A stretch of 64,000 nt of DNA from Rhizobiales bacterium 2SD (GTDB lineage: Bacteria; Pseudomonadota; Alphaproteobacteria; Rhizobiales; Beijerinckiaceae). Positions 41,656-55,428 of this stretch are shown in pieces. The stretch spans positions 62,001 to 126,000 of the forward strand of contig SCMY01000015.1 of the NCBI GenBank assembly GCA_005502805.1, in the 5' to 3' direction. A model generated the notes under the pieces. The model saw only the letters and a program-made list of their open reading frames with translations, was not told where the DNA came from and did not search any database. Positions within the stretch are counted from its first letter, which is position 1. Every line of letters starts with the position of its first letter. Made by a program: the position numbers and the translations under genes.

Positions 41656-42819
41656 ATGGGGCGGGGATTGGCGGACGTCTATGACGAAGACCGGCTGTCG
41701 GTCATCAGCCAGAACCTGGCCGCGGCCGTTGATGCCGCGACCTTCGGCGAAGGCTCATGGGACCGGGTGCCGGCGATCCTGTGCGACGCCTTTCCCGGTT
41801 CGATCGGGTCGTTCCTCAACATGAATTTCTCGGAAAGCCGAGTGAACTATTACGCGTCGCAGAACATCGCCCCGGCTTTCATCACGTCCTACGCGGAACA
41901 TTTCGCCGCCATCAATCCCTGGGCCACCTATTGGGGACCCATCAATCGAACGACGATCGCCGCTTCAGAGGATGTCTACCCGGCCCGGAGCTTTGCCGAC
42001 TCCGAATTCTACAATGACTGGCTGCTTCCTCAGGGGCGCGCGGAGGCGGCCGTCGGCATGAAGCTCGTCGGAGGTCACGACGAGGCCGTGTATTTTACGC
42101 TGAACTATCCGCTCGTACGGTCCGGCACCTACGACCGCGCCGCGCTGAAGGTCCTGAACAACATCCGGGGCAGTCTGGAGCGCTCGGTCAATCTTGCTCG
42201 CCTCCTGCGTTCGGACGTTGAAACGATGGTCGCCAAGACCGCCCTGGTGGAGCGCAGCCGCTACGCGGCCTTCGTGGTCGACAGCGATCGACATCTTCGG
42301 GACGCGAACCCGCTCGCCGAACAGCTCTTCGTTTCCGGAAGCGGCGTTGCCGTTCGGTTCGGCCGCTGCCATCTGGCCGATGCTGACGCGGATGCACGCT
42401 TCGCGGCGGCGCTGGACAGCTTGTCCCAAGGAAAGCCGACTCCCGTCTCTCGCATCGGGTTTCGGACTGCGACCGGGGCATGGCAGGTGTCACTTGCCGC
42501 ACTTCCGGTCGTTCAGCCTCCCGGTGGAGCTCGTCTCGTCCTGCTTCCGCCTCAACGCATGATTCTGGTGTTGATCGCCGATCTCGATTCGAAGGGAGTG
42601 CGTACGGGCAGCCTTGAGTCTTTCGCCAAGGTTTTCGGCCTGACGCAGTCGGAAATCGCCTTCTGCAACCGCTTGCTGCTGGGCGAATCAATCGTCGAGG
42701 CAGCAGACCGGCTCGGTATCACTCAGGGGACCGCTCGGACGCGACTGAAGCTGATCTTCCAGAAGACAGGCACGTCCCGGCAAGCGGAGCTGATGCTGCT
42801 TCTGGTCAAAGCCAGTTAG
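41656..42819 (+). CDS. LuxR-family transcriptional regulator, paralogue 2
   Basis: The product has 387 aa, collinear with the protein of 15932-17086 over its whole length (shared DRLSVISQN, AATFGEGSWDRVPAIL, EFYNDWLLPQGR, LARLLRSDVET). The C-terminal helix-turn-helix is LTQSEIAFCNRLLLGES, then AADRLGITQGTARTRLKLIFQKTG. The start at 41656 has GCAGGAG 13 bp upstream. The codon choice is less GC-biased than in neighbours. An IS5-type remnant follows directly. Both genes probably arose by duplication. Their signal and targets are unknown. Confidence 0.85.
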   Translation: MGRGLADVYDEDRLSVISQNLAAAVDAATFGEGSWDRVPAILCDAFPGSIGSFLNMNFSESRVNYYASQNIAPAFITSYAEHFAAINPWATYWGPINRTTIAASEDVYPARSFADSEFYNDWLLPQGRAEAAVGMKLVGGHDEAVYFTLNYPLVRSGTYDRAALKVLNNIRGSLERSVNLARLLRSDVETMVAKTALVERSRYAAFVVDSDRHLRDANPLAEQLFVSGSGVAVRFGRCHLADADADARFAAALDSLSQGKPTPVSRIGFRTATGAWQVSLAALPVVQPPGGARLVLLPPQRMILVLIADLDSKGVRTGSLESFAKVFGLTQSEIAFCNRLLLGESIVEAADRLGITQGTARTRLKLIFQKTGTSRQAELMLLLVKAS

Positions 42820-42956: not shown

Positions 42957-42981
42957 GGAACCCGCTCATTGCTGAGGCGTT
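42957..42981 (+). promoter_or_regulatory. EcfG-type promoter upstream of the DUF883 gene
   Basis: GGAAC (42957-42961), 16 bp, CGTT (42978-42981) is an exact match to the alphaproteobacterial general stress response promoter. The DUF883 start lies 60 bp downstream with a strong ribosome site, so stress induction of the two-gene unit is expected. Confidence 0.8.
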
Positions 42982-43041
42982 GAGCTTTGCGCCATGCCTT
43001 CCGCATGGCATCGTTCATTGCCGGCACCAAGGAGGCGTTTG

Positions 43042-43404
43042 ATGGCCGCAACCAGCTCTACTGCCAAGCGACAGGCCGCGGCCTCGGTCAAGCGCGCCAA
43101 GGACGAGGTGGCGGACGCCGCCTCGGACACGGCCGAGCGCGCCCGCCGCGCCGGCCGCCGCGTCAAGGACGAGGCTGACGAGATCGAAGCCAGCCTGGCG
43201 CGCGGCGCCGAGGACCTTGCCGCGACGGTCAGCGAGAAGCTCAAATCGGTCGGTGTCGACACCGACCGCATGGCCGCCGTGGCGCGCGAACAGGCCAGCG
43301 ATCTGGAAGAGCTGATCATCCGCGAGATCCGCGAGCGGCCCCTGCGGGCCCTTGGCCTTGCGGCCGCGGTCGGGCTGTTCGTCGGCTTCCTCTCGGCGCG
43401 CTGA
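43042..43404 (+). CDS. DUF883 (ElaB/YqjD-like) membrane-anchored protein
   Basis: The product has 120 aa. A long charged helical part (KRAKDEVADAASDTAERARR..., coiled-coil-like) is followed by one C-terminal hydrophobic helix, RALGLAAAVGLFVGFLSAR. ElaB and YqjD anchor to the inner membrane and bind ribosomes in stationary-phase E. coli; this role may not carry over. AAGGAGG precedes the start at 43042. The next gene begins 2 bp after its stop. An exact EcfG promoter lies upstream, so it is a likely stress effector. Confidence 0.85.
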   Translation: MAATSSTAKRQAAASVKRAKDEVADAASDTAERARRAGRRVKDEADEIEASLARGAEDLAATVSEKLKSVGVDTDRMAAVAREQASDLEELIIREIRERPLRALGLAAAVGLFVGFLSAR

Positions 43405-43406
43405 CC

Positions 43407-43826
43407 ATGCTTGGGGGGCTGACCGGTCTGGTCACGCGCGAGGTCGGCGGCGTCGTGCGCCGCAACGTCACGGTCGTCGTGCTCTACCTGCTTGCGGGCG
43501 TGCTGGCGGCCGGTGCGGTGGGATACGCGCTCAACGCGCTGCATACGGTGCTGACGCTGCATTACGGGGCGATCACCGCCAGCCTGTCGGTCGCCGGTGG
43601 GCTGCTTGCTGCTGCGCTGCTCATGCTCGGCATCGCGCTCTATGTGAAGAGCCGGCCGCGCCCGGACCGGCGGCTGGCGGCCGCGGTCGCCGCCGCGCCG
43701 ATCGCAGCCTCGCTAGTCGGCAACCGCAAGCTCGGCTGGCGCGCCGGGCTCGTCGGCGGCGTCGTGCTGCTCGGGCTCATTCTCGGGCGGCAGTTCGCGC
43801 AAGGCGACGACGACGCTGAGGAATAA
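43407..43826 (+). CDS. Small integral membrane protein (YqjE/holin-like)
   Basis: The product has 139 aa with three hydrophobic segments (VVVLYLLAGVLAAGAVGYAL, SLSVAGGLLAAALLMLGIAL and AGLVGGVVLLGLILG) and an acidic tail (DDDAEE). It resembles the putative Actinobacteriophage holin/YqjE proteins that accompany YqjD-like genes. It is translated directly after the DUF883 gene and shares its promoter. A function in envelope stress is inferred from context only. Confidence 0.78.
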   Translation: MLGGLTGLVTREVGGVVRRNVTVVVLYLLAGVLAAGAVGYALNALHTVLTLHYGAITASLSVAGGLLAAALLMLGIALYVKSRPRPDRRLAAAVAAAPIAASLVGNRKLGWRAGLVGGVVLLGLILGRQFAQGDDDAEE

Positions 43827-43926
43827 GGCGCATTCGCCCTGAAGCGGCTGCTTTTCCGTGGCCGGTTCAGGGCGGTATGTCTTTTTACCTTGGGCTATCG
43901 GGGTTCAGCGTCTATTCAAGGCAGCG

Positions 43927-45315
43927 ATGAATGCCCAGCTGAAGCTCCGTCCACGCTGGCTGTCGCCGGGACTGCCCTTGCTCGGTACGCGCCTCTACAC
44001 CGCCTCCTCGGCGGCGATCGCGATCGTCGTGGTCGCTGCCGCCGTGCTGATCGCCGGCTGGATCAACATCCAGGCCGACGAGGCTTCCCGGCTCGTTTCA
44101 CGCTCGATCGACATCCGCGAACGCAGCGAGCGCTTCCTCGGCAACCTGCTCGACGCCGAGACCGGCCAGCGCGGCTTCCTGCTCACCGGCGACGAGGCCT
44201 ATCTCGAACCCTATAACGACAAACAAGCGGAGCTGCTCCCGAGTCTCGACCAGATCGAGCAGCTCGCCGCCTACAGCCCGACGCAGCTGGAACGCATTCA
44301 AAGCGCCCGTGCCATCACGAACCGCAAACTCGGAGAGATGGCCGAGACGATCGCGCTGATGCGCCGCGGCCAGCGCGGCGAGGCCGTCGCGCTGGTCACT
44401 CAAGGCACTGGAAACCGGCTGACCCAGGGATTGCGCGACGTCATCAGCGCAATCCAGCTGGAGGAGAACCTTCGGCTTACCGCCAGCACCCGCCGCGAGG
44501 CGCGCCGGCGCGTCCTGGCCAGCGCCGGCATTCTGTTCGCACTCGCCGGCCTGTGCTTTGCCGCCTGGCTGCAATTGCGGGGGCGGCACCGTCGCACGGT
44601 CTCGCTGACCAGCTCCAATGCCGAGCTGGAGCGGAAAGTGGCCGAGCGTACGCGCCAGCTCGAGAATGAGCGCCTGCGCATCGAGGCGCTGCTGCGCGAT
44701 GTCAATCATCGCGTCGGCAACAATCTGGCGATGGTCTCCGCTTTGCTCAACGTCCAGAGCCGGCAGACGCGCGAGCCGGCGGTCAAGCAGGCGCTCGCCC
44801 AGGCGCAATCGCGCATCCAGGCGATCGCCGCCGGCCAGCGCCGCCTCAGGCTCGACATCGAAGCCGACGAGATCGAGGCCCGGCCCTATCTTGAGGACCT
44901 GCTGGCCGAGATCGGCAAGGCGGCGGAGGGCCGGCCGATCGAGATCGCGCTGGCGATGGATGCGATCCGCCTGCCCGGGCGCGACGCCGTCTCCTTCGTC
45001 GTGGTCATCAACGAGCTGGTGACCAACGCGATCAAGCACGCCTTTCCCGATGGCGCCGCCGGCCGGATCACGATCCGCCTCGACCGCACGCCCGAGGACA
45101 ATCTCGTCCTCTGCGTCGAGGATGACGGCGTCGGCATGCCTGAGGAGCAGCAGACGGCGGGGCTTGGAAAATCCGTGATCAACGCGCTGCTCCGCAGCAT
45201 GCGGGCCGAGATGAAGATCGCCCCACTATCGCCGGACGCCAAGCGACCCGGCACCCGCGTCGCCGTCACCTTCCCGAAACGGGAGCAGCCGGTGGAACAG
45301 GAAGCGGCGGAATAG
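43927..45315 (+). CDS. CHASE3-domain sensor histidine kinase, HisKA_2 (HWE-like) type
   Basis: The product has 462 aa. Helix 1 (about 28-46) and helix 2 (about 198-218) enclose a periplasmic CHASE3 domain (LLDAETGQRGFLLTGDEAYLEPY). The kinase part has the phospho-accepting His261 in RDVNHRVGNNLAMV, the N-box NELVTNAIKHAF, and the G-box EDDGVGMPE, so it should be active. HisKA_2/HWE kinases are the usual activators of PhyR. It converges on a single-domain response regulator gene with an 8-bp gap and lies 2.4 kb from phyR. Candidate PhyR kinase, inferred from type and place. The start has AAGG upstream. Confidence 0.87.
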   Translation: MNAQLKLRPRWLSPGLPLLGTRLYTASSAAIAIVVVAAAVLIAGWINIQADEASRLVSRSIDIRERSERFLGNLLDAETGQRGFLLTGDEAYLEPYNDKQAELLPSLDQIEQLAAYSPTQLERIQSARAITNRKLGEMAETIALMRRGQRGEAVALVTQGTGNRLTQGLRDVISAIQLEENLRLTASTRREARRRVLASAGILFALAGLCFAAWLQLRGRHRRTVSLTSSNAELERKVAERTRQLENERLRIEALLRDVNHRVGNNLAMVSALLNVQSRQTREPAVKQALAQAQSRIQAIAAGQRRLRLDIEADEIEARPYLEDLLAEIGKAAEGRPIEIALAMDAIRLPGRDAVSFVVVINELVTNAIKHAFPDGAAGRITIRLDRTPEDNLVLCVEDDGVGMPEEQQTAGLGKSVINALLRSMRAEMKIAPLSPDAKRPGTRVAVTFPKREQPVEQEAAE

Positions 45316-45323
45316 GCCGCTCC

Positions 45324-45683
45324 TCACCCCTTGTTCAGGACCTTTGAGACGAAACGGCCGAGCTCGTCGGCCGAGAAGGGCTTGCGCACGAAGCGCACGT
45401 CACGCAGCTCGGGCGGCACCTCGCTCGGCGCGGACCCCGAGACGAACACCAGCGGCGTCCCCTTGGCGCGCAGGCTCGCAGCGACTCCGAAGGTCTTGCC
45501 GCCGACGACATCGATGTCGAGCAAGGCGCAGGATATCGGCTGATCGGCGGCGCGGCGTGCCTGCGAGACCGATTCGACCACGATCAACTCGGCGTCGTCG
45601 CCGAGCTCTTCGCTCACGGCGCTCTCGATATCCATCGCGATAAAGGGGTCGTCCTCGACGATGAGGACCCGAATACCGGCCAT
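45324..45683 (-). CDS. Single-domain response regulator
   Basis: The product has 119 aa, a receiver domain only. The acidic pocket is VEDDPF, the phospho-acceptor is the aspartate of CALLDIDVVG, and the conserved lysine is in VRKPFSADEL. VFVSGSAP replaces the FATGUY-type loop of related stress regulators. An upstream GTG at 45710 is a possible alternative start. A perfect EcfG promoter sits at 45750-45775. The kinase gene ends 8 bp away on the opposite strand. It may shuttle phosphate within the stress network, as MrrA/SdrG-type proteins do. Confidence 0.87.
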   Translation of the reverse strand: MAGIRVLIVEDDPFIAMDIESAVSEELGDDAELIVVESVSQARRAADQPISCALLDIDVVGGKTFGVAASLRAKGTPLVFVSGSAPSEVPPELRDVRFVRKPFSADELGRFVSKVLNKG

Positions 45684-45749
45684 GAGCCCCAGATCACCTT
45701 CCAACTTCACGACTAAACCCCAAGCTGCTTCCTGCTTGTGAGCTTCATG

Positions 45750-45775
45750 AACGCCTGCTTGGTCGGCCTTGTTCC
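45750..45775 (-). promoter_or_regulatory. EcfG-type promoter upstream of the response regulator gene
   Basis: On the minus strand GGAAC (45775-45771), 17 bp, CGTT (45753-45750) is exact. The start codon of the regulator is 40-67 bp downstream. Orientation and distance both fit. Confidence 0.78.
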
Positions 45776-45860
45776 GTTCTGAGCCGGATTGTCCGCCTCG
45801 AACCCTTCAAATTCAACTCAAATTGGCTGGATATGGTTAGGAAAGCGTAAGTATCGCCGC

Positions 45861-46325
45861 TCAGCGTTTACGCGGCGCGCGGACCAGGTTGAGTTCGAAG
45901 GCGGTGACGCCGAGCGCGACATTGGCGCCGCGCTGGATGGGCAGGGCCCGCGGCACCAGCCGGACATCGCCATCGACGCTGCCGGTCAGCGCAACCTCAC
46001 CCTGCTTGCGGGCATAGGGGCCATTCAGAACGCCAAGCGGCGCACGGGCATAGGGGCCGTAGACCCGCCAGGCGAGCAAGCTACGCCCGACTGTCCTGGC
46101 GTCGAGAGCGAAGCCCCGGATCACCCCGCTATAAGTCTGCAGCGGGCCGCGCCGTGGCCGGAAGCGGCAGTCGAGCGACTTCTGCGTCGCGACTGCCTGG
46201 GCAAGACCCGCACCGATCGTGCAGGTCAGACGGCCGGCCGGCGCACCGCTCTGCGCCCAGGTTGGAGCGGCCGCGAGAAGGCTGGGTCCAGCCGCCAGGA
46301 CGATCGTTGCGAGCAGACGTCTCAT
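45861..46325 (-). CDS. DUF992 family secreted protein
   Basis: The product has 154 aa. The signal peptide is MRRLLATIVLAAGPSLLAAA, cut near PTWAQ. GRLTCTIGAGL, LDCRFRPRRGPLQTYSG and GVIRGFALD follow the DUF992 pattern, with two cysteines that could pair. The family is common in Rhizobiales and its function is unknown. A promoter-like GGAAC-N17-GGTT lies 78 bp upstream, one base off the EcfG consensus in the -10. It is divergent from the 76-aa gene. Confidence 0.82.
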   Translation of the reverse strand: MRRLLATIVLAAGPSLLAAAPTWAQSGAPAGRLTCTIGAGLAQAVATQKSLDCRFRPRRGPLQTYSGVIRGFALDARTVGRSLLAWRVYGPYARAPLGVLNGPYARKQGEVALTGSVDGDVRLVPRALPIQRGANVALGVTAFELNLVRAPRKR

Positions 46326-46402
46326 TCACCCTCTCCTACGCCTTGCCGCGCATGCATATGCGCCACCGGTAGATCATCCCAATGCGCTTCGAAACCGCAC
46401 CA

Positions 46403-46428
46403 AACCGCCGCAATCACTCCATAGTTCC
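46403..46428 (-). promoter_or_regulatory. Near-consensus EcfG promoter (GGTT variant) for the DUF992 gene
   Basis: On the minus strand GGAAC (46428-46424), 17 bp, GGTT (46406-46403). The -35 is perfect and the -10 has G in place of C. It is back to back with an exact EcfG promoter at 46439-46463. Confidence 0.5.
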
Positions 46429-46438
46429 CAAATAATCC

Positions 46439-46463
46439 GGAACCTCAATCCGGTGCTTGCGTT
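46439..46463 (+). promoter_or_regulatory. EcfG-type promoter upstream of the 76-aa gene
   Basis: GGAAC (46439-46443), 16 bp, CGTT (46460-46463) is exact. The ATG at 46491 lies about 20 nt after the predicted transcript start, giving a very short leader. Confidence 0.78.
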
Positions 46464-46490
46464 GACGGGAACAGACCAGTGGACGCGCAA

Positions 46491-46721
46491 ATGCCAAAGC
46501 AAGGACGAATCGACCCGGTGTGGATGTTTCCTACCCCCAAGCTGGCGCGCGATCTTCCGCCATTCTGGGAGCTCGAACAACTTCTGCGCGAGGGTTTCGA
46601 CCATGATTCCGCGCTGGCCGAGCTCGCTCGCCGGCGGGAGAGCTGGTCGGCAGGCGGCCGTCCGTCGCCGATCGCCGCGCAGTCCGGCAACCCAGACAAC
46701 ATCTTCACGATCGTGTCATAG
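46491..46721 (+). CDS. Small hypothetical protein, 76 aa, predicted stress-induced
   Basis: No family is recognised. The protein (MPKQGRIDPVWMFPTPKLAR...) is soluble, with the middle WELEQLLREGFDHDSALAELARR predicted helical. A GTG at 46479 would add four residues. The ribosome site is weak. It is supported mainly by an exact EcfG promoter just upstream and by normal codon use. Its end lies 26 bp from the convergent extensin-like gene. An alternative view is that the transcript acts as a small RNA. Confidence 0.6.
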   Translation: MPKQGRIDPVWMFPTPKLARDLPPFWELEQLLREGFDHDSALAELARRRESWSAGGRPSPIAAQSGNPDNIFTIVS

Positions 46722-46746
46722 AGCGACGCTGGGATCGGCTTCGGCA

Positions 46747-47529
46747 TCATTGACAGAACCTGCTCGACGCCGCGCGTCGCTGCTGGATGTCGACATGAAG
46801 ATGGTTGGCATGCGCAGCATCCGAGCCGGGACCCAGGACCGTCATGAAGGCGCCGCAGGCGGATTGGCGCACTGCATCGAGAAAGCGCGTCTGCTCCAGC
46901 CCGCTCGGCCGCTCGACTGAGACCGCCTTTCCACCCAGTTTCTCATTCCCGATTTCGAAGGCGAAGATGTCGAGCGCTCGTCCGGTGGCGTGCTCGCTGA
47001 GCTGCCCTTGCATCTGCCGGTTACGCCGACGGCATTCATGCCCGCCGCCGACGCGAAGCGCCGTCAGTTCGCCACCAAACGCCCCGCGAGTCAGTGGCTG
47101 CAGGCTCGTGTCGAGCCACCGCGAAACCGCTTGCGCCAGCTCGCAGCTGACCGTGGGCGGTGGCACCAGCCTGACTTGGCCAGGCCCCGAAGACATTCGA
47201 ACCGCCAGAGCCTCGACCACGACCGGATCGACCACCCGGCACTCCTCGGAATCGGGCTTCGCCGCAGGCCCGGCAGCGCGAATCTGGTTTCCCGCTACGG
47301 CCGTCAGATTCCGGACGCAGGCGCTGCCTTCGGACTTGGCAGGGGGCTCGGCCGCGACCGACGCTGCCGGCGGCAGCGGCGCGGGAGCTGACAGCGAGGC
47401 CGGACGCGGTGGGGGCAGAGGTATCGTCACCGGCTGCACTTCCCGGCTCCATGCCTGACCGACGCCAGCAAAGCTCGTCGCGACGGCGGCCGCCCGGAAA
47501 CTCCGCCGGAGAAGAGAGCGCTGCCACAT
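46747..47529 (-). CDS. Extensin-like C-terminal domain protein (secreted)
   Basis: The product has 260 aa. A twin-arginine-poor signal sequence (RRSFRAAAVATSFAGVGQAWS) and a proline-rich linker (PLPPPRPASLSAPAPLPP) lead to the extensin-like_C domain: CELAQAVSRWL, SEHATGRALDIFAFEIG and HANHLHVDI. The histidine/aspartate pattern is like that of D-Ala-D-Ala carboxypeptidases of the VanY/MepA fold, so a cell-wall role is likely. It is preceded by a 23-codon membrane ORF in the same transcript, with an exact EcfG promoter before that. GGGGTGAG precedes the start. Confidence 0.83.
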   Translation of the reverse strand: MWQRSLLRRSFRAAAVATSFAGVGQAWSREVQPVTIPLPPPRPASLSAPAPLPPAASVAAEPPAKSEGSACVRNLTAVAGNQIRAAGPAAKPDSEECRVVDPVVVEALAVRMSSGPGQVRLVPPPTVSCELAQAVSRWLDTSLQPLTRGAFGGELTALRVGGGHECRRRNRQMQGQLSEHATGRALDIFAFEIGNEKLGGKAVSVERPSGLEQTRFLDAVRQSACGAFMTVLGPGSDAAHANHLHVDIQQRRAASSRFCQ

Positions 47530-47533
47530 GCTC

Positions 47534-47605
47534 TCACCCCACGGTCGTGAACAGGACCATGAACGAGGCTGCGACGATCAGCGCCGCCAGCAGAACCATG
47601 GACAT
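47534..47605 (-). CDS. Unannotated 23-aa hydrophobic small ORF in the extensin-like transcript
   Basis: An ATG at 47605 with an excellent AAGGAGATCGGTC before it opens 23 codons: MSMVLLAALIVAASFMVL, then a short FTTVG end, and TGA at 47534. The peptide is one membrane helix. It starts about 27 nt after the predicted transcript start of the EcfG promoter at 47639-47664 and ends 4 bp before the extensin-like start codon, so the two are coupled. It is too short for routine gene finders. Translation is inferred from the ribosome site. Confidence 0.6.
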   Translation of the reverse strand: MSMVLLAALIVAASFMVLFTTVG

Positions 47606-47638
47606 GACCGATCTCCTTCGCATCGCCCGGGCCGGGGC

Positions 47639-47664
47639 AACGCGAGGAATGGCCGACTTGTTCC
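47639..47664 (-). promoter_or_regulatory. EcfG-type promoter for the 23-aa ORF and extensin-like gene
   Basis: On the minus strand GGAAC (47664-47660), 17 bp, CGTT (47642-47639), an exact match. It lies just beyond the phyR stop codon and points into the small ORF, so the transcript is separate from phyR. Confidence 0.8.
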
Positions 47665-47683
47665 CAGTCACCTCGAAACGGCG

Positions 47684-48478
47684 TCAGGCCGCCTTGCGGC
47701 CAGCGCGCCGGTCGAAGAACAGCGCCTGGCTGATCGCGGCCTTCACCGCCTCCGGCTGGAACGGCTTGGTAATCAGGAAGGCGGGCTCCGGCCGATCGCC
47801 GGTGAGCAGCCGCTCCGGATAGGCGGTGATGAAGATCACCGGGACCTCGATCGCTTCGAGGATCTCATTGACCGCCTCGAGGCCGGAGCTGCCATCGGCG
47901 AGCTGGATGTCGGCGAGGACGAGTCCAGGACGCTTCTTGGCGGCCAGCGCGATCGCCTCGCGATGCGTCCTGGCGACGCCGGTAACCTTGTGGCCGAGCT
48001 CCTCGACCATGGTCTCGATGTCGAGGGCGATGATCGGCTCGTCCTCGATGATCAGCACGTCGGTGGCGACCTGCTCGGCGATTTCCTGACCAGCGGTCTG
48101 CACGAGGCCGGCTGCGTCGCTGCTGGAGATGTTCATGATCTGCGCGACCTCCTCGATGGAGAACCCCTCGACTGTCCGCAACAGGAAGGCCTGGCGCGAG
48201 CGCGGTGTAAGGGCGTCGAGATTGCGTTCGGCGGCGGAGCGTTCGGCTTCGGGCGCCGAAGCCTGGGTGTTGAGCCCCACCGACGACCACATCTGCAGGA
48301 AGAGCCGGTAGAGACCGACCCGCGGCCCCAGCTCGCGCGGGAAGGTGCCGGGGTCGGCAATCAGCGCTTCCAGCGTTGCGACGACATAGGCGTCGCCGCC
48401 AGCTTGGGTGCCGCTCAGCGCCCGGGCAAACCGGCGCAGATACGGCAAATGCGGCGCGATTTCGGTGGCGATCGACAT
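47684..48478 (-). CDS. phyR: General stress response regulator PhyR
   Basis: The product has 264 aa. Residues 1-125 form a sigma-like domain (LTPRSRQAFLLRTVEGFSIEEVAQIM) that mimics EcfG. Residues 138-264 are a receiver (VLIIEDEPIIALDIE, phospho-acceptor Asp190 in LVLADIQLADG, FITAYPE, ITKPFQ). When phosphorylated, PhyR binds the anti-sigma factor NepR and frees EcfG. It is divergent from nepR-ecfG, the standard arrangement. GGGGGAT precedes the start at 48478. A hairpin in its leader is noted separately. Confidence 0.96.
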   Translation of the reverse strand: MSIATEIAPHLPYLRRFARALSGTQAGGDAYVVATLEALIADPGTFPRELGPRVGLYRLFLQMWSSVGLNTQASAPEAERSAAERNLDALTPRSRQAFLLRTVEGFSIEEVAQIMNISSSDAAGLVQTAGQEIAEQVATDVLIIEDEPIIALDIETMVEELGHKVTGVARTHREAIALAAKKRPGLVLADIQLADGSSGLEAVNEILEAIEVPVIFITAYPERLLTGDRPEPAFLITKPFQPEAVKAAISQALFFDRRAGRKAA

Positions 48479-48501
48479 GATGCTATCCCCCACGAGTCAG
48501 G

Positions 48502-48532
48502 CCCGATCGGCTTTCAGCGCAAGCTGATCGGG
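48502..48532 (-). promoter_or_regulatory. Stem-loop in the phyR leader
   Basis: CCCGATCGGCTT (48502-48513) pairs with AAGCTGATCGGG (48521-48532), 12 bp with one G-T wobble and a 7-nt loop. It lies 24 nt upstream of the phyR start codon on the phyR transcript. No U-tract follows, so a terminator is unlikely; an effect on translation or stability is possible. Confidence 0.4.
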
Positions 48533-48647
48533 TCGGGCTCTATCCAGAATTGAGAGGCGGACCGACGAGGTCCGGCTCTGTCCAAAGTTGCCGGAGAAGA
48601 GCACTCAAGTCCCTGTTATGACAAGAAGAATATTTTTTGTTCCCGTC

Positions 48648-48672
48648 GGAACCTTTTGCCTTCGGCCTCGTT
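48648..48672 (+). promoter_or_regulatory. EcfG-type promoter of nepR-ecfG (autoregulation)
   Basis: GGAAC (48648-48652), 16 bp, CGTT (48669-48672) is exact and 115 bp upstream of nepR. A second GGAAC on the minus strand (48643-48639) faces phyR only 4 bp away, but its -10 (GTCA at 16 bp) departs from consensus. Confidence 0.85.
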
Positions 48673-48787
48673 ATTGGGCCGAATGAAGGTGCGTTTCGGG
48701 CAGTCGCGCGTGAGCGTCTCGGCGAGCGTGCGACACGTGGTTTGGTGTGACCGGCGAAACAGCGGCGCGCCGATGGAGCGAGGGATC

Positions 48788-49012
48788 ATGAATCTGATGA
48801 ATGCCGATCCGCCCGAAGCGGCCCGAGCCGAACCGGACGACGAAATGGCGCTCGACCCGCGTGTGCAGGAGTCGATCGGCCGGTCGCTGAAGGCGCATTA
48901 CGACGAGCTCGTCAACGCTCCGGTCCCCGATCGCTTCCTGGTGCTGCTGGCCCAGCTCGAAGATACCGAACGGCGCTTGAAAGCCGAGGGCGGTGCCGAT
49001 GAGCGCGGCTGA
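48788..49012 (+). CDS. nepR: Anti-sigma factor NepR
   Basis: The product has 74 aa, the normal NepR size. The conserved core is IGRSLKAHYDELVNAPVPDRFLVLLAQLE, flanked by disordered acidic and basic ends. NepR holds EcfG inactive until phosphorylated PhyR competes for it. The start at 48788 has GAGGGATC upstream; an in-frame ATG at 48773 would add five residues. It overlaps ecfG by 14 bp, so both are translated from one message. Confidence 0.94.
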   Translation: MNLMNADPPEAARAEPDDEMALDPRVQESIGRSLKAHYDELVNAPVPDRFLVLLAQLEDTERRLKAEGGADERG

Positions 49013-49559
49013 TTTCAAGGACGGGCTGATCGCGGAAATCCCGAACCTGCGCGCCTTCGCGGCGTCGCTGTCGGGCTCGATGCAGCTTGCCGACGATCTG
49101 GTTCAGGACACGCTGCTCAAAGCCTGGGGCAATGCCGAGAAATTCCAGCCCGGAACCAGTCTGCGGGCCTGGCTCTTCACCATCCTGCGCAATACCTATT
49201 ATTCGCTCTACCGCAAACGCGGGCGCGAAGTGCAGGACAGCGAAGGCACCTATGCCGACCGGCTCGCCACCCATGGCAACCAGGAAAGCCATCTCGACCT
49301 CGCCGATTTCCGCAAGGCGCTGGCAAAACTGCCGGAAGAACAGCGCGAAGTGCTGATCATGGTCGGCGCCACCGGGCTGTCCTACGAGGAGACCGCCGAA
49401 ATCTGCGGCGTCGCCATCGGCACGATCAAGAGCCGGGTCAACCGGGCACGCGCCAAGCTGGCGGAACTGCTGTCCATCGGCGGCGTCGACGATCTCGGTC
49501 CCGATCACCGGATCACCGCAGCCGTCCAGCGCGCCGGGCCTGAAACCGTCGGCAGCTGA
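48999..49559 (+). CDS. ecfG: General stress response sigma factor EcfG
   Basis: The product has 186 aa. Sigma region 2 is LADDLVQDTLLKAWGNAEKF with TSLRAWLFTILRNTYYS, and region 4 is LPEEQREVLIMVGATGLSYEETAEICGV, then GTIKSRVNRARAKL. These place it in ECF15. It directs RNA polymerase to GGAAC-N16/17-CGTT promoters. It overlaps nepR by 14 bp and its TGA overlaps the start of the kinase-like gene (TGATG). Several exact target sites lie within 6 kb. Confidence 0.96.
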   Translation: MSAADFKDGLIAEIPNLRAFAASLSGSMQLADDLVQDTLLKAWGNAEKFQPGTSLRAWLFTILRNTYYSLYRKRGREVQDSEGTYADRLATHGNQESHLDLADFRKALAKLPEEQREVLIMVGATGLSYEETAEICGVAIGTIKSRVNRARAKLAELLSIGGVDDLGPDHRITAAVQRAGPETVGS

Positions 49560-51289
49560 TGGCCCTCTCGCTGTTCAGGACGGTCCGCGGACGCCTGCTG
49601 GCACTGATGGTCGCGATCGTCCTGCCGATCGCCTGCCTGACGGCTGCGGCGGCGGTCGCGACCTATCGCACCGTCTTCGAGGCGATCGAGACCGCGCAGA
49701 TGCGCGCGGCGGACGACTTCGCCGTGCGCGCCCGCGTCTGGTATCGCGGCGCGCTGCGCTCGCTCGTCGCCAGCGCCGCGACGATCCGGGCGGTGTCGCC
49801 GCCTTCCGACACATGCGAGCGCATCGCCGAAAAGGCGCTCGCCGCGGTCTCCGGCTACGAGGCGTTGCTGTTGCGGGTCGCCGGCAAGCCGGACTGCATC
49901 GGTGGGCTCGACGGCAGCATCCCCCGCAGTGAAATCACGACCGTGGCCAACCAGCTCGCATCGCGCCCGCCGATCACGCTCTGGGGCGGCACCGAGTTCA
50001 CCAAGGCTCGCTATGATCAGGTCACCATCGCGGGCCGCTCCTATCTCGCCGTCTACAGCGAGTTCGACGAGGGCGACGCACTCCTGCTCACCAAGCCGGA
50101 CCCGCTCGACGACACCTTCGACCTCGGCAGCAGCGACAAGGGCATGATGGCGGCGCTGCTGCGGCGCGGCGGCGACGTCGTGGTTGCGCGCGGCGGTGCG
50201 CAGGCCGACGCCTCGTGGCTCCCCAGGATGGAGAGGGTGCCCGAGCAGACGGCGCACTGGACCGCGCCAAGCCGGGCCGGGCCGGGCCGGACCTATGCCG
50301 CGCGCATGGTGGCGGAGCCCGACCTCTACGTCGTGGTGAGCTTCGACGGAACGGCCGAACAGGCCGCGAAGACGCAGTTCTACACCTTGCTGCTGGCGCC
50401 GCTGCTGACGCTGTTCCTGCTCGGTCTGGTCTACATGAAGGCGATCGACCAGCACTGCGTGCGCTGGCTGCGCGGCATCGAGGCGACGGCCCGGGCCCGT
50501 TCCAGCTCAGCCAGCGCCCTTGTCCCGCTCTCGGACGAGATGCCGCGCGACATCCGCAGCGTCGCCGAGGCCTTCAATGCGATGGTCGACGAGCAGGAGG
50601 TGCGCCAGAGCAAGCTGCGGCTCGCACTCGACGACAATCGCTTCCTGGTCCGCGAGCTGCATCACCGAGTCAAGAACAGCCTCCAGGTGGTGCAGAGCTA
50701 TATCGGCCTCACCAAGCGCAACCATCAGGGCGAGGCGCGGCTGGCGCTGTCCGATGCGGAATGCCGCGTCCATGTGCTCTCGGCCGCCTATCGCTTCACC
50801 CTCGCCGATGGTGAGATGCAGCCGGTACGCATCGACCTCTTCCTCGACGATGTCGTCGCGATGATCTCCAGCCTGATCCTCGCCCGCGGCCAGCGGCTCG
50901 GAAGCCGTATCGAAACGCAGGCCACCCTGCCGATCGACCGGATCATCCCGCTCGGCTTCCTGATCGTCGACGTGATCAGCCGGGCGCTGCGCGGATCTCC
51001 GGGCATCGGCATCGAGCTCGCCGTGACGAACACCGGCGACGACATCATCGACGTCGCCATCTCCACGGATCGCGACACCAGCCAGATCGCACCGCCACGG
51101 CTGTTCGCCGGGCTGCTGATGCAGATCGAAGCGGTCGAGATCAGCCCGCCACAGGGCCGCAGCCTCGGCGTCTGGCGCCTCAGCCACGGCGCTCCGCGCA
51201 AGGGCATCGGCGTTCAGTCCAGCCCTTCGGCGGGGGTGATCTCGACGCCGACGCCGAGCCCGACGAAAGCGCCGGCCGGCCCGACATAA
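49559..51289 (+). CDS. HWE/HisKA_2-like sensor with degenerate ATPase domain (PhyP-like)
   Basis: The product has 576 aa. It has a helix at about 12-35, a large periplasmic domain, a second helix at about 275-295, a HAMP-like part, and a phospho-acceptor box VRELHHRVKNSLQVVQS (His near 369). The ATPase part lacks the N-box asparagine (LIVDVISRALRGSPG where NELVTNAxKH is expected) and the DxGxG and GLG motifs, so it should not autophosphorylate. In Sphingomonas, PhyP in this genomic place is a negative regulator of PhyR. A phosphatase role is inferred here. The last 76 bp overlap the convergent transglutaminase gene. Confidence 0.85.
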   Translation: MALSLFRTVRGRLLALMVAIVLPIACLTAAAAVATYRTVFEAIETAQMRAADDFAVRARVWYRGALRSLVASAATIRAVSPPSDTCERIAEKALAAVSGYEALLLRVAGKPDCIGGLDGSIPRSEITTVANQLASRPPITLWGGTEFTKARYDQVTIAGRSYLAVYSEFDEGDALLLTKPDPLDDTFDLGSSDKGMMAALLRRGGDVVVARGGAQADASWLPRMERVPEQTAHWTAPSRAGPGRTYAARMVAEPDLYVVVSFDGTAEQAAKTQFYTLLLAPLLTLFLLGLVYMKAIDQHCVRWLRGIEATARARSSSASALVPLSDEMPRDIRSVAEAFNAMVDEQEVRQSKLRLALDDNRFLVRELHHRVKNSLQVVQSYIGLTKRNHQGEARLALSDAECRVHVLSAAYRFTLADGEMQPVRIDLFLDDVVAMISSLILARGQRLGSRIETQATLPIDRIIPLGFLIVDVISRALRGSPGIGIELAVTNTGDDIIDVAISTDRDTSQIAPPRLFAGLLMQIEAVEISPPQGRSLGVWRLSHGAPRKGIGVQSSPSAGVISTPTPSPTKAPAGPT

Positions 51290-52086
51290 CTGCCCGAAAT
51301 CGGCGAGGCGTCTTCCGGCACCCGGGCCACCGCGACACGCAGCAATTGCCGGTCGGCGACGAGGTTGTTGGTCGGATCGAACTCGACCCAACCGTCGTTG
51401 GGGATGAAAACCTCGGCCCAGGCATGGGTCAGCCCGACCACGGAGGCCATCATACCACCCTCCGGCGAGCGGTCGTGGATATAGCCGGTGACGAAGCGCG
51501 CGGCGAAGCCGAGCCGGCGCGCCAGCTCGATGAACAGCCAAGCGTAGTCGCGGCAGGAGCCCGTTCCCATCTGCAGCGTGTCGAGCGGATGCTGGGTGCC
51601 CTCGTCATAGCGGACCGCGTAGGTCAGGCCGGTGCTGATCTCGCGCGCCAGCGCTCGCAACAAATGGCCGCCATTCAGACGGGCCCTGAAATCCTGAAGC
51701 CAGGTGTCGAGAGCTCCATCGGGGTCCGCGGAAGCCAGATCGAGATAGGGCTGCAGCACGGCGCGCTCCGCCAGCGTATAGCTGATCTCGGAGCTTTCGA
51801 TGTCGGGCTCCACCTTCGAGCGCGGCAAGGCCGAGCCAAAGCGTTGGACGACCAGTTCGCTGACAATGTCGAGCGTGTCCGAAAGGCCGGTAAACGTCGC
51901 CATGCCGACCGAGTTGCCATAGGCGTCGTGCATCCAGCGCAGGTTGGCCTGCGGCGCGATCGCAATCGCCGTGTCGATCACGCGCAGGTCGAAGGAATCG
52001 CGCGGGCGCAGCATCAGCCGGTGCGGACCGAACTGCACCGGTTGGGCGTAGCGATAGGTCGTCGCGTGTCGGATACGCAGATACAT
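51214..52086 (-). CDS. Transglutaminase-like cysteine protease family protein
   Basis: The product has 290 aa. The N-terminal domain YLRIRHATTYRYAQPVQFGPHRLMLRPRDSFDL is the bacterial transglutaminase-like N-domain. The catalytic triad is Cys in GSCRDYAWLFIELARRLG, His in LTHAWAEVFIP, and Asp in WVEFDPTNN. Such proteins are thought to be peptidases or amide ligases; the substrate is unknown. The start at 52086 is chosen because GGGG lies 6 bp upstream. It overlaps the convergent kinase-like gene by 76 bp. An imperfect EcfG site (GGAAC-N16-CGTA) is at 52166-52190. Confidence 0.87.
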   Translation of the reverse strand: MYLRIRHATTYRYAQPVQFGPHRLMLRPRDSFDLRVIDTAIAIAPQANLRWMHDAYGNSVGMATFTGLSDTLDIVSELVVQRFGSALPRSKVEPDIESSEISYTLAERAVLQPYLDLASADPDGALDTWLQDFRARLNGGHLLRALAREISTGLTYAVRYDEGTQHPLDTLQMGTGSCRDYAWLFIELARRLGFAARFVTGYIHDRSPEGGMMASVVGLTHAWAEVFIPNDGWVEFDPTNNLVADRQLLRVAVARVPEDASPISGSYVGPAGAFVGLGVGVEITPAEGLD

Positions 52087-52246
52087 CGTCATCCCCAGCC
52101 GGCCTCGTCGTGCCATCACGGCAAAAAGCCGCCTCACGGCGGCCTTGCTGATCAGACAGATCTATTACGCGCGAGCGACGGTCCGGTTCCGCCGCCGCTG
52201 GCTCGACTCAGCGCAGGACGGTGTTGCCCTTGAGGCTGGCCTCGCG

Positions 52247-52483
52247 CTACGAGGTCGGCACGACGCGGTGAGCGAGATCGCGGCGCATCTCGGCCGGGTT
52301 GACCGCGGCGAACTGGACATCGGCCGGAGCGCCGCGCTGGAGCTTGGCCTGCGCTACGGCTTCCGAGCTCTCGCCGAAACCGTTCTGGAACGAGGCGCCC
52401 ATGGTCAATGCAGTCACGACCAGCGCCATGCCGCCGAAGAAGGTGGCGGCGCGCTTGAGGGGGGCAAGACTGGCAGTCGTCAT
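52247..52483 (-). CDS. Small secreted or membrane-anchored hypothetical protein, 78 aa
   Basis: No family is recognised. MTTASLAPLKRAATFFGGMA, then LVVTALTMGASFQ, forms a signal anchor. The short remainder (LQRGAPADVQFAAVNPAEMR) is polar. GGGAGAG precedes the start at 52483. A GGAAC-N16-GGTT site lies 52 bp upstream and may make it stress-induced. It lies between the transglutaminase and ABC transporter genes on the same strand, with gaps of 160 and 112 bp. Confidence 0.7.
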   Translation of the reverse strand: MTTASLAPLKRAATFFGGMALVVTALTMGASFQNGFGESSEAVAQAKLQRGAPADVQFAAVNPAEMRRDLAHRVVPTS

Positions 52484-52534
52484 CGTCGCTCTCCCGGTTC
52501 GTGTGACCGCTCTTGAAAGGCGGAACGGCATCTC

Positions 52535-52559
52535 AACCCGTCTGGCGGGGAATTGTTCC
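52535..52559 (-). promoter_or_regulatory. Near-consensus EcfG promoter (GGTT variant) for the 78-aa gene
   Basis: On the minus strand GGAAC (52559-52555), 16 bp, GGTT (52538-52535). The same -10 variant occurs at 46403-46428. Confidence 0.45.
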
Positions 52560-52595
52560 GGTTTGCGCGGAAATCGCAGCGATCCCGATTCTTTT

Positions 52596-54407
52596 TCAGG
52601 CCGTTGAACGGTCGTTGGCGGCCTCGCGCCGGCGGAACAACCGCCAAAGCGACTTGGTCAGGCGCCTCGAGGTCAAATGCGCGCCGGCCTCGCGCTTCTC
52701 CAATGTGATCTTGCGCTCGTGGAAATCCTCGAGACCCGGCCGGTGGCCGACGCTGATCACGGTGGCATAGGCAAGCTCGCTTTCGATCAACCCGAGCAGC
52801 CAATCCTGGCTGTCCTCGTCAAGCGCCGAGGTCGCCTCGTCCATGATGATGATATCGGGCTTCTGGATCAGCAGGCGCGCAAAGGCGACGCGCTGGCGCT
52901 CGCCGCCGGAGAGGATCTGGTCCCAACGCTCCTCCTCGTCGAGGCGGCGGCCGAGATAGGCCAGGCCGCAACGCTCCAACGCCGCCCGCACCGTCTCATC
53001 GTCGACGCGGCTCTCGGCCTCCGGATAGAGCAGCGCATCGCGCAGCGTGCCGAGCGGCAGATAGGGCTTTTGCGGCACGAAGGCGACGCGCTTGCCGCGC
53101 GGCAGCCTGATCGAGCCGGACCCCCAGGGCCAGAGGCCGGCGAGCGCGCGGATCAGCGTGCTCTTGCCCGTCCCGCTCTCACCGGCGATCAGCACCTTCT
53201 CGCCTGATGCGATCTCAACGGAAGCGTCGGCGATGACGATGCGGCCGTTGCTGTGCGCGACCGACAGATCGGCGATGTGGATCGCCCCGTTCTCGCTCTC
53301 GCCGAGCTCGATCTGCGTCTCGCCTTCCATGATCGTGCCGACGTCGAGCGCCTCCAATGCTTCGGCCAGCTCGTCGACGCGCGTCACCGAGGCGAACCAT
53401 TCGGCCAGCCTGACGAAATTGTCGACGAACCAGATCAGGGCGGCCTGCACGGCGCTGAAGGCGGCGACGACCTGCATGACGGCCCCCAGCGTGATCTCGC
53501 CGGACAGGTATTTCGGCGCGATCAGCAGCAGCGGCACGATCGGGAACAGCGCGCCGTTGGTGTTGAGCACGATCGCGATGACGCCCTGCTGACGGATCAC
53601 CTTCAGCCAGGCGGCGACGACGCGGCCATAGTTCTCGACGACCGAATCGCGCTCATCGGCATCGCCCTTGATCAGGGCGATGCTCTCGGCGTTCTCGCGC
53701 AGCCGCGTCATCTCGGCGCGGAACTGCGCCTCGGCCTCGTTCTTGGCGGCGATGCGCGGCACCAGCGGCCGGCCGGCGAGATAGGCAGCGAGCGAGGCGA
53801 TGACCGCATAGACGATCGCGGCGAGCGCCATATAGCTGGGGATTACGATCTCGCTTCCGCCGAGCGTGAAATGTGCTGCTCCTGCGACCTGCCAGAGGAT
53901 CGCCGCGAAGGTCACCGCCGTGACGAAGGCGCTGAGCAGGCCGATCGCGAACTCGACCAGGGGCTCGATGGCGAGACGGACATCGTCAGCGATTCGATAT
54001 TCCGGTGCGCTCTGATCGGGCACGACGAACTGCATCCGGTAATAGCGTTGGTCGGCGATCCACCAGCCTGCGAGGCGGTGCGTCAGCCATTCGCGCCAGC
54101 GCATCTGCAGCAGCATCCGGCTGATCACGAGACAGGAGAGCGACAAGGCCGAGGCCAAGACGATCAACGGCAGCCAGCCGACCGCAATCCAGACCTTGTC
54201 CAGGTCGCGCTTCTCCAGCGCGTCGAAGAAGAGTCTATTCCAGCTGTTGACGCCCACCGCGGCGCCGAGCTGAGCCGCAACGAACAGCAGGACGGCGAGA
54301 GTCAAGCCCCAGGCGCGCAGGCGACTCTCGCCCCGCCAGAAGCGCAAGGCCACGCGAAAGAATTGGCGCAGGCGCGAACGCCGCAGCCCGGAGGCGTGTG
54401 ATTTCAT
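52596..54407 (-). CDS. SbmA/YddA-type ABC transporter, fused membrane and ATPase domains
   Basis: The product has 603 aa. The membrane domain is of the ABC_membrane_2 type (NSWNRLFFDALEKRDLDKVW, then LTHRLAGWWIADQRYYRMQ), as in YddA, BacA-linked and ABCD-type transporters. The C-terminal ATPase has [23 protein letters not shown] and IIMDEATSALDEDS. It probably moves peptides or lipid-like compounds across the inner membrane as a homodimer; direction is uncertain. The start has GGAGG 7 bp upstream. An exact EcfG promoter is 78 bp upstream, so it is likely a stress-induced transporter. Confidence 0.9.
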   Translation of the reverse strand: MKSHASGLRRSRLRQFFRVALRFWRGESRLRAWGLTLAVLLFVAAQLGAAVGVNSWNRLFFDALEKRDLDKVWIAVGWLPLIVLASALSLSCLVISRMLLQMRWREWLTHRLAGWWIADQRYYRMQFVVPDQSAPEYRIADDVRLAIEPLVEFAIGLLSAFVTAVTFAAILWQVAGAAHFTLGGSEIVIPSYMALAAIVYAVIASLAAYLAGRPLVPRIAAKNEAEAQFRAEMTRLRENAESIALIKGDADERDSVVENYGRVVAAWLKVIRQQGVIAIVLNTNGALFPIVPLLLIAPKYLSGEITLGAVMQVVAAFSAVQAALIWFVDNFVRLAEWFASVTRVDELAEALEALDVGTIMEGETQIELGESENGAIHIADLSVAHSNGRIVIADASVEIASGEKVLIAGESGTGKSTLIRALAGLWPWGSGSIRLPRGKRVAFVPQKPYLPLGTLRDALLYPEAESRVDDETVRAALERCGLAYLGRRLDEEERWDQILSGGERQRVAFARLLIQKPDIIIMDEATSALDEDSQDWLLGLIESELAYATVISVGHRPGLEDFHERKITLEKREAGAHLTSRRLTKSLWRLFRRREAANDRSTA

Positions 54408-54484
54408 GCGGCGGCCTCCAAAGCCGATCTGCTATGCCGAGACAGAGCGCGATTGCTAAGCTGCAGCTTTCGCGCCAGACAGAA

Positions 54485-54509
54485 AACGCAAGCATTCGCC
54501 GCGAGTTCC
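54485..54509 (-). promoter_or_regulatory. EcfG-type promoter upstream of the SbmA/YddA-type ABC gene
   Basis: On the minus strand GGAAC (54509-54505), 16 bp, CGTT (54488-54485) is exact, with the start codon 78 bp downstream. It lies in the leader of the divergent crp/fnr gene. Confidence 0.78.
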
Positions 54510-54529
54510 GGCGGATGAAGGAGTCGGGC

Positions 54530-55291
54530 GTGATCGTTTCATCGAGCAATCATCGCAGTCACCGCAGCCCGTCCTGCCTCGCCTGCCCGTTGCGGCTGAA
54601 ACCCGCCTTCAAGGACAAGTCCGATGAGGAGATCCGCTTCATCCAGGCGATGAAGCTCGATCACCGGCAGTTGCCGGCCGGGAGTGACATCATCCATCCC
54701 GGCCAGGAGGATGCCGAGCTCTACACGCTCTTCTCCGGCTGGGCCTTCCGCTATAAATCGCTGCCGGACGGACGCCGGCAGATCCTCAACTTTCTTTTGC
54801 CCGGCGATCTCGTCGGCCTGCAGGCCTCGCTGCTCAGCGCCGCCCAGCACGGCATCGAAGCCCTGACAGAGGTCGAGCTCTGCGTCTTCCCGCGCCGGCG
54901 GACCTATGAAATGTTCGGGCGGATGCCGGCGCTGGCCTATGAGCTCGCCTGGCTCGGCTCGCGCGAGGAGTGCCTGATCGACGAGAATCTGACCTCGGTC
55001 GGCCAGCGCAACGCGCAGGAGCGGATCGCGGCGCTGGTGATCTCGCTCTATCGCAGAGCCGAGGCGCTCGGCCTCGTTGCCGAAAACAGTTTCGCCTTCC
55101 CGCTGACGCAGCAGCAGCTCGCCGACGCGCTCGGCCTGTCTCTGGTCCACACCAGCAAGACCTGGGCCCGTCTGCGAAAGGCCGGGATGTTCACGCTCGA
55201 GCGCGGCCGCCTCACCATCCACAATCCGCGCCTGACCGAGCGCATGGCGCTGCTGTTCGAGAGCGAATTGCAGCCACGCCCGCTGATCTGA
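54530..55291 (+). CDS. Crp/Fnr family transcriptional regulator
   Basis: The product has 253 aa from a GTG. The cyclic-nucleotide-binding-like domain spans about 30-150 (LPAGSDIIHPGQEDAELYTLFSGWAFRYKSLPDGRRQIL), and the helix-turn-helix is PLTQQQLADALGLSLVHTSKTWARLRKAG. CLACPLRLKP has two cysteines near the N-terminus but not the full Fnr cluster set, so oxygen sensing is uncertain. An ATG at 54515 is in frame, but AAGGAG is ideally placed for the GTG at 54530. It is divergent from the ABC gene. Confidence 0.86.
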   Translation: MIVSSSNHRSHRSPSCLACPLRLKPAFKDKSDEEIRFIQAMKLDHRQLPAGSDIIHPGQEDAELYTLFSGWAFRYKSLPDGRRQILNFLLPGDLVGLQASLLSAAQHGIEALTEVELCVFPRRRTYEMFGRMPALAYELAWLGSREECLIDENLTSVGQRNAQERIAALVISLYRRAEALGLVAENSFAFPLTQQQLADALGLSLVHTSKTWARLRKAGMFTLERGRLTIHNPRLTERMALLFESELQPRPLI

Positions 55292-55428
55292 TCACGGAGC
55301 TTCCGGCGACCGGCCAAGAAATCGCTGGATTCGGTCCGCTCTTGACCCCATATGACAGCGGCGTAACGTCACGGCATTGTCATGTCGCTTCGGTTGGGGC
55401 CATCGCCTTCGCCGCATCGAGGTTCTGA

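Follow-up and report, generated by a model that had tools for sequence, protein, structure and literature searches.

The PhyR-NepR-EcfG switch of the general stress response (GSR) is well known, and phyR-nepR-ecfG loci also occur in alphaproteobacteria other than those named below. Here we describe such a locus in Bosea, a soil bacterium. It occupies positions 42957 to 54509 of a 64,000-nucleotide stretch of DNA from Rhizobiales bacterium 2SD (contig SCMY01000015.1), hereafter the window, whose coordinates are used throughout. The loci of Sphingopyxis (PMC7083833) and Rhizobium etli (PMC3892343) have phyR divergent from nepR-ecfG, an EcfG-type promoter before nepR (described for Sphingopyxis in PMC7083833) and a sensor kinase gene alongside. 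The published EcfG motif, GGAAC-N16-CGTT, is given in both papers, for R. etli in PMC3892343. The window locus is alike in all these respects and differs in about a dozen further genes, several of which have an EcfG-type site of their own. In the available part of a paper on Bosea stress genomics (PMC11804256), the words EcfG and NepR are absent.

Phosphorelays that feed the switch have also been described. Pak kinases of Sphingomonas melonis phosphorylate SdrG and PhyT hands phosphate to PhyR (PMC5898713); Sphingomonas PhyT has an HRxxN motif and a degenerate ATPase domain, and its gene lies at the phyR locus. A knockout of phyP (phyT) could be made in Sphingomonas only where the stress response of the strain was impaired. 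The window system resembles that of S. melonis Fr1: its phyR locus encodes a predicted degenerate phosphotransferase of the HRxxN type, and both have a single-domain regulator and HWE/HisKA_2 kinases. In Fr1 sdrG and the pak genes are scattered, whereas the window's island contains genes for a kinase and the single-domain regulator, and an EcfG-type promoter precedes each of them. The MrrA-PhyK-PhyR system of Caulobacter (PMC5964349) is likewise composed of a single-domain regulator, a histidine phosphotransferase and then PhyR. It differs in that the window regulator has FVSGS for FATG, and the second of the two histidine kinase (HK) homologs in the island, HK2, matches the PhyK model weakly.

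All three proteins of the switch are matched by family models, in agreement with the earlier note, which was made from the window's letters alone and placed phyR, nepR and ecfG at the centre of a stress island; on these matches their identity is certain. PhyR contains sigma-like and receiver domains (PF22029, PF22233, PF00072; NF006623 380.5 bits, cut-off 240). NepR, whose gene adjoins the sigma gene, scores 52.2 bits with PF18557 (cut-off 25.7), and EcfG displays Sigma-70 regions 2 and 4 and 249.9 bits (cut-off 219) with NF009199, which we take to be a model covering EcfG. The whole genome holds one NepR match and one close EcfG; the next extracytoplasmic function (ECF) sigma factor is 34% identical, and neither a second close EcfG nor a second NepR was found genome-wide. 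Judged by ecfG, whose closest relatives among the best 80 of 192 confirmed loci are from Bosea (97-99% identical), the host genome is a Bosea.

We consider it highly probable that the region is the GSR master locus of Bosea, enlarged into an autoregulated island with a phosphorelay and about nine EcfG promoters, the count including three sites that are one base off in the window and strict in many other Bosea. Rather than a system of a new type, the island is a known locus in enlarged form, a reading that is well supported. Its notable part is the dense promoter wiring around the switch, nearly every gene block appearing to carry EcfG's own promoter.

The strict pattern GGAAC-N16/17-CGTT has exactly six matches on both strands of the window, four with N16 and two with N17 spacers, and they are the six that the earlier note had located (Table 1). 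Its expectation of less than one match is borne out by dinucleotide shuffles of the window (mean 0.55; none of 100 reached six). It had also allowed for further sites, and three near-consensus ones, each one base off, were found at 46403, 52166 and 52535, all on the minus strand. The six were thought to be intergenic and to point at nearby genes. Five plainly are intergenic; the sixth, 54485, is inside the longest open frame of a divergent Crp-like gene (54398-55291), and a later start of that gene (54590) would make it intergenic as well. Distances from site end to the next same-strand gene are 28-110 bp in our own gene set; with later start calls they are 131 bp for the ABC transporter gene and 115 bp for nepR.

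Could such matches be due to chance, or be a by-product of GC-rich composition? A genome-wide excess was sought and is absent: the 6,265,038 bases contain 100 strict matches, one per 63 kb, against 119 for the reversed control pattern. A lone match thus carries little weight. By our own codon-score gene caller, which misses short genes and puts island sites 46439 and 47639 in the second class, 43 of the 100 matches precede a same-strand gene, 24 are otherwise non-coding and 33 lie inside coding frames. Yet when 100 sites were placed uniformly at random, six of them fell within 11.5 kb in just 2 of 20,000 placements.

Further evidence comes from the 80 ecfG loci. The Bosea group was defined as 41 of these with ecfG 87-99% identical (L031-L069, L071 and L079; some are titled otherwise), 38 others (L072-L110 minus L079, one titled Bosea sp. 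117) formed a second set, and L070 (82%) was placed in neither. Five Bosea-group loci end at contig edges (L043, L044, L050, L066, L069), which leaves 36 with full flanks. The 41 loci, each of up to 20 kb, contain 303 strict sites in 801,137 bp, while 51 permuted motifs average 16.6 (maximum 68) and are thus about 18 times rarer. At least six strict sites are present in 38 of the 41.

These sites recur at the same orthologous genes. Orthologues were scored, window included, for a strict site within 300 bp; n varies by gene, since cases with the orthologue absent, identity below 38% or a doubtful start were left out. Counts for each promoter are given in Table 1; as background, stretches of 300 bp drawn at random from these loci, without removal of the true sites, hold a 9/9 match in 115 and an 8/9 match in 82 of 2000 draws. 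The sites of the DUF992, transglutaminase-like and 94-aa genes, with one mismatch in the window, are strict in many other Bosea. No EcfG-type promoter was found within 300 bp upstream of phyR in any of 42 loci.

Upstream regions were aligned across Bosea with MAFFT. In five of six of them the promoter boxes are 0.92-1.00 identical, whereas identity is 0.40-0.53 in the spacer and 0.36-0.47 elsewhere. Masks slid along the alignment never matched the conservation of the boxes in four regions and did so in 2 of 255 positions in the nepR region. On the evidence of the shuffles, random placements, slid masks and permuted motifs we reject a chance origin and regard it as hardly credible.

A different sigma factor might also be responsible: the sites would be real ECF promoters, served wholly or partly by another ECF factor that recognises a similar -35 box. 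The genome has five other ECF-like matches (the closest 34% identical to EcfG), and the AAC of the -35 box is near-invariant in ECF promoters according to PMC7083833. Nevertheless, the EcfG motif as published is the pairing with CGTT, ecfG has sites of this kind around it in Bosea and other alphaproteobacteria, and one of them precedes nepR-ecfG itself. We therefore consider this explanation quite improbable. The local EcfG regulon proposed in the earlier note is supported by the published motif, box conservation in five of six regions and recurrence at orthologous genes, which also argue for the identity of the promoters as EcfG-type.

From the gene families, motif positions and conservation observed, we infer use of the sites by EcfG, a route of phosphate and an operon structure. 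Since ecfG overlaps both nepR upstream and HK2 downstream, nepR-ecfG-HK2 is very probably one operon; judging from spacing, the DUF883 gene, the 139-aa gene and HK1 probably form another. HK2 carries an HRVKN motif (HRxxN type) in its dimerisation domain in all 15 aligned sequences. It gave no HATPase hit at E 0.001 (only HisKA_2 and HWE were detected), the usual Asn box is absent by eye in the alignment, and hydrophobic stretches are visible by eye. The PhyK model NF051872 matches HK2 over positions 1-463 of 537 with a score far below cut-off. Because of the HRVKN motif, the missing ATPase hit and this score, HK2 is called a predicted PhyT-like protein. HK1 scores 104.8 bits with the same model, below the cut-off of 750.

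The single-domain response regulator matches NCBIfam response-regulator and PhyR models below their cut-offs. Aligned Bosea-group sequences have FVSGS (FVSGA in L067) at the place of the FATG-type motif, whose exact letters we take to be FATG, and that motif itself was not found. The protein may thus be described as FATGUY-like, not as a proven FATGUY member. The predicted relay genes (kinase, single-domain regulator, PhyT-like protein, PhyR, NepR and EcfG) all lie within 7.5 kb.

In the mechanism we propose, HK1 would pass phosphate to the single-domain response regulator and this to HK2, the PhyT-like HK2 would hand it on to PhyR, and phosphorylated PhyR would pull NepR away from EcfG. RNA polymerase with EcfG would then fire the island's approximately nine promoters (six strict, three one base off), raising the amounts of the sigma factor, NepR, the PhyT-like protein, the kinase, the response regulator and mostly envelope-related proteins. 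Because phyR is without an EcfG-type promoter, the loop would increase EcfG, NepR and the proteins of the relay but not PhyR. Such a loop might damp or sharpen the stress response.

Several observations weigh against this interpretation. In the extensin region the boxes are 0.62 identical and the rest 0.54, and 30 of 114 slid masks equal the boxes. When the comparison is confined to the close clade of the window, in which conservation extends to most positions, box contrast is clear only for the DUF883 and response regulator regions and weak in the other four of six, with slid masks as good as the boxes in 8/125 (76-aa), 4/255 (nepR), 4/95 (ABC) and 17/114 (extensin) cases. The site before nepR is strict in just 18 of 42 loci, and that of phyR in none. 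As for the relay, HK2 reaches 117.7 bits, far under the NCBIfam PhyK cut-off of 750, and the response regulator does not have the letters FATG and falls under the Pfam cut-off. Finally, the HK1-DUF883 operon is absent from 6 of 36 full-flank loci, so HK1 cannot be indispensable in the relay of the genus and other kinases must be able to feed it.

We wondered if dense EcfG-type sites also surround the switch elsewhere. Of 193 genomes sampled across the class, 36 have a NepR match, the window's included, and one locus was taken from each of the 35 others. Three of these (L134, L139, L153, with 1, 1 and 3 sites) were dropped, having no ecfG match within 3.5 kb. The 32 kept include three with NepR under the Pfam cut-off (L154-L156) and several in which over 1 kb separates nepR from the ecfG match. 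They contain 79 strict sites in 593,900 bp (100 controls: mean 11.05, maximum 39), i.e. 2.5 per locus, compared with a mean of 7.4 in the Bosea group. By distance from nepR, 49 sites are within 2 kb, 25 at 2-7 kb (controls: mean 5.2, maximum 16) and 5 beyond 7 kb (controls 3.2). The 38 other ecfG loci have 184 sites (60 controls: mean 13.95, maximum 52). At least six sites are present in 3/32 class-wide loci and 16/38 of the other ecfG loci, against 38/41 in the Bosea group. These counts indicate that EcfG-type promoters tend to form a halo throughout the class, and that this tendency is strong in Bosea and some other relatives. No description of such a halo was found in the literature searched, in which few subscription papers are covered and papers are represented in part. 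In many other alphaproteobacterial loci there is a site on the minus strand, about 300-450 bp upstream of ecfG, which may serve phyR.

The weaker halo is also relevant to the view that the promoters are genuine and that the clustering as such serves no function, GSR genes having piled up beside an old locus. Both the halo and the turnover of sites and genes between Bosea clades favour it. On the other hand, the response regulator, DUF992, HK2 and 94-aa genes are kept at the locus, together with phyR, nepR and ecfG, in all 36 full-flank loci. We lean against this view while granting it a substantial chance. The autoregulated island that we prefer does vary in gene content between Bosea loci: the DUF883, 139-aa, HK1 and transglutaminase-like genes are each present in 30 of the 36, the 76-aa gene in 31, extensin in 32, the Crp-like gene in 33 and the ABC transporter in 23.

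Features of the island are listed in Table 1. Family matches uphold the extensin-like and ABC transporter assignments of the earlier note. Of its DUF883/YqjE-like membrane proteins, the DUF883 assignment (PF19029) stands, whereas the gene at 43407-43826 gave no Pfam or NCBIfam hit that would make it YqjE-like. The PhyT-like protein, the location of the three near-consensus sites and two other clusters in the genome (see below) had been passed over.

Table 1. Genes and predicted EcfG-type promoters of the island (positions in the window; promoter counts are loci in the orthologue test)
Feature	Position	Strand	Evidence
EcfG-type promoter, strict N16, for DUF883 gene, membrane gene and HK1	42957..42981	+	strict upstream of orthologue in 26/26; boxes 100%, rest 36% identical in 26 loci
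DUF883-family protein, glycine-zipper membrane protein	43042..43404	+	PF19029 30.3 bits, cut-off 27
139-aa protein, membrane protein by eye	43407..43826	+	no family hit; in 30/36 full-flank loci
HK1, CHASE3-HisKA_2-HATPase histidine kinase, candidate stress-sensing kinase	43858..45315	+	CHASE3, HisKA_2, HATPase_c above cut-off; in 30/36 loci
EcfG-type promoter, strict N17, for single-domain response regulator	45750..45775	-	strict in 38/40
Single-domain response regulator, FATGUY-like (FVSGS replaces FATG)	45324..45710	-	PF00072 20.8 bits, under cut-off 30.2; alignment
EcfG-type promoter, near-consensus 8/9, for DUF992 gene	46403..46428	-	strict at orthologue in 30/41
DUF992 protein	45861..46325	-	PF06186
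EcfG-type promoter, strict N16, for 76-aa protein	46439..46463	+	strict in 34/35
76-aa protein	46491..46721	+	no family hit; in 31/36 full-flank loci
EcfG-type promoter, strict N17, for 23-aa ORF and extensin-like gene	47639..47664	-	strict in 14/17 with testable extensin orthologue; boxes no better conserved than rest
23-aa hydrophobic ORF with ribosome-binding-site-like sequence	47534..47605	-	23-25 aa in 10/10 loci of window's clade
Extensin-like C-terminal domain protein	46747..47529	-	PF06904
phyR, anti-anti-sigma response regulator	47684..48493	-	PF22029, PF22233, PF00072, NF006623; best upstream motif match 6-7 of 9 in all 42 loci
EcfG-type promoter, strict N16, for nepR-ecfG-HK2	48648..48672	+	strict in 18/42, one mismatch in 24/42 (L054's at another place)
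nepR, anti-sigma factor	48773..49012	+	PF18557
ecfG, general stress sigma factor	48993..49559	+	family models; Bosea relatives 97-99% identical
HK2, PhyT-like, HisKA_2 with HRVKN, no recognisable ATPase domain	49559..51289	+	HisKA_2 and HWE hits; overlaps ecfG stop; weak PhyK-model match
EcfG-type promoter, near-consensus 8/9 (CGTA), for transglutaminase-like gene	52166..52190	-	strict in 15/34, one mismatch in 15
Transglutaminase-like protein	51214..52137	-	PF08379, PF01841
EcfG-type promoter, near-consensus 8/9 (GGTT), for 94-aa gene	52535..52559	-	strict in 24/41, one mismatch in 9
94-aa protein	52247..52531	-	no family hit
EcfG-type promoter, strict N16, for ABC transporter	54485..54509	-	strict in 26/27
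ABC transporter, ABC_membrane_2 / SbmA-BacA-like membrane part with ATPase	52596..54407	-	family match; in 23/36 full-flank loci

Pfam and NCBIfam scans yielded no family hits for the 139-aa, 76-aa and 94-aa proteins. The 23-aa open reading frame (ORF) could be the truncated form of some small membrane protein, because an ORF of 54 aa occupies the same spot in 25 of 32 other Bosea-group loci.

Two neighbouring genes deserve mention. The window's Crp-like gene (54539-55291, plus strand) has no strict EcfG-type site before it, and strict sites upstream of its orthologue occur in 12 of 38 loci. Ten of the 11 full-flank loci with the Crp-like gene and without the ABC transporter have one there (L052, L054, L055, L057, L058, L061-L065; not L060), as do L048 and L051, which keep the transporter. 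At the other edge, the gene at 41668-42819 (plus strand) is LuxR-like by eye and gave no family hits. At its place all seven relatives viewed (L031, L034, L041, L048, L054, L063, L067), which were picked for having a site there, carry a gene whose product (about 376-398 aa) looks AI-2E/PerM-like by eye and which has a strict EcfG-type site to itself.

The window belongs to contig 6 of the genome. Analysis of the whole genome revealed two other clusters of strict sites: five sites on contig 5 (49.3-55.6 kb; 49295-55602) and eight on contig 27 (119.0-142.8 kb; 119024-142794). As these are as dense as the ecfG island or nearly so, the island is not unique in motif density. In the contig 5 cluster (L112, 46001-62000), DUF892, YflT-like and PepSY-like genes directly follow a Pam3-type holin/endolysin module, and baseplate genes are found further on. 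The contig 27 cluster (L113-L114, 112000-150000) contains paralogues of this cassette, PRC-barrel genes and remnants of the same lysis genes, along with catalase, two Ku-like, CsbD-like and exonuclease III-like genes recognised by eye. Two IMG/VR contigs likewise contain the YflT/PepSY pair together with a strict site. Nothing in the annotated phage collection matches the YflT-like protein, and the viral contigs yielded just one weak relative of EcfG, 28% identical.

Strict sites were then counted around lysis modules in 30 distinct prophage loci (among L234-L263, L112 and L114; two duplicates dropped), with 359 permuted motifs as controls. On the same strand, the first 1 kb after the module contained 14 sites in 11 of the 30 loci (controls: mean 0.21, maximum 3), and at 1-6 kb there were 11 (controls: mean 1.13, maximum 7); the pattern is clearest in L251, L243 and L244. 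The 6 kb upstream contained 1 site (controls 1.70) and the downstream opposite strand 3 (controls 1.42). Excluding the two loci of the window's own genome, which were the source of the idea, leaves 12 sites in 9 of 28 loci. No such site is present in 19 of the 30; seven have less than about 1.2 kb after the lysis genes. A stress-type gene or cassette was recognised right behind the site in 5 of the 11 loci (L251, L243, L244, L112, L114).

It is possible that phages keep a cargo slot after their lysis genes under host stress control. More broadly, the Bosea stress regulon could be built in clusters, namely the old ecfG hub and accessory clusters pre-wired on temperate phages, whose cargo slot (PRC-barrel, PepSY-like, YflT-like, DUF892) would be under a host EcfG promoter and switched on by the host stress signal. 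This proposal is tentative, and we put it a little short of an even chance. In the titles and abstract openings surveyed, no paper on EcfG promoters in prophage cargo was found. The prophage pattern is a more surprising lead than the ecfG island.

The present work offers a concrete list of genes and promoters for the general stress response of Bosea. Since the relay genes are clustered, the predicted phosphate route can be tested with genes from one place. If the proposal on prophages is true, their cargo slot would reveal a way for a global stress regulon to acquire members that are already wired.

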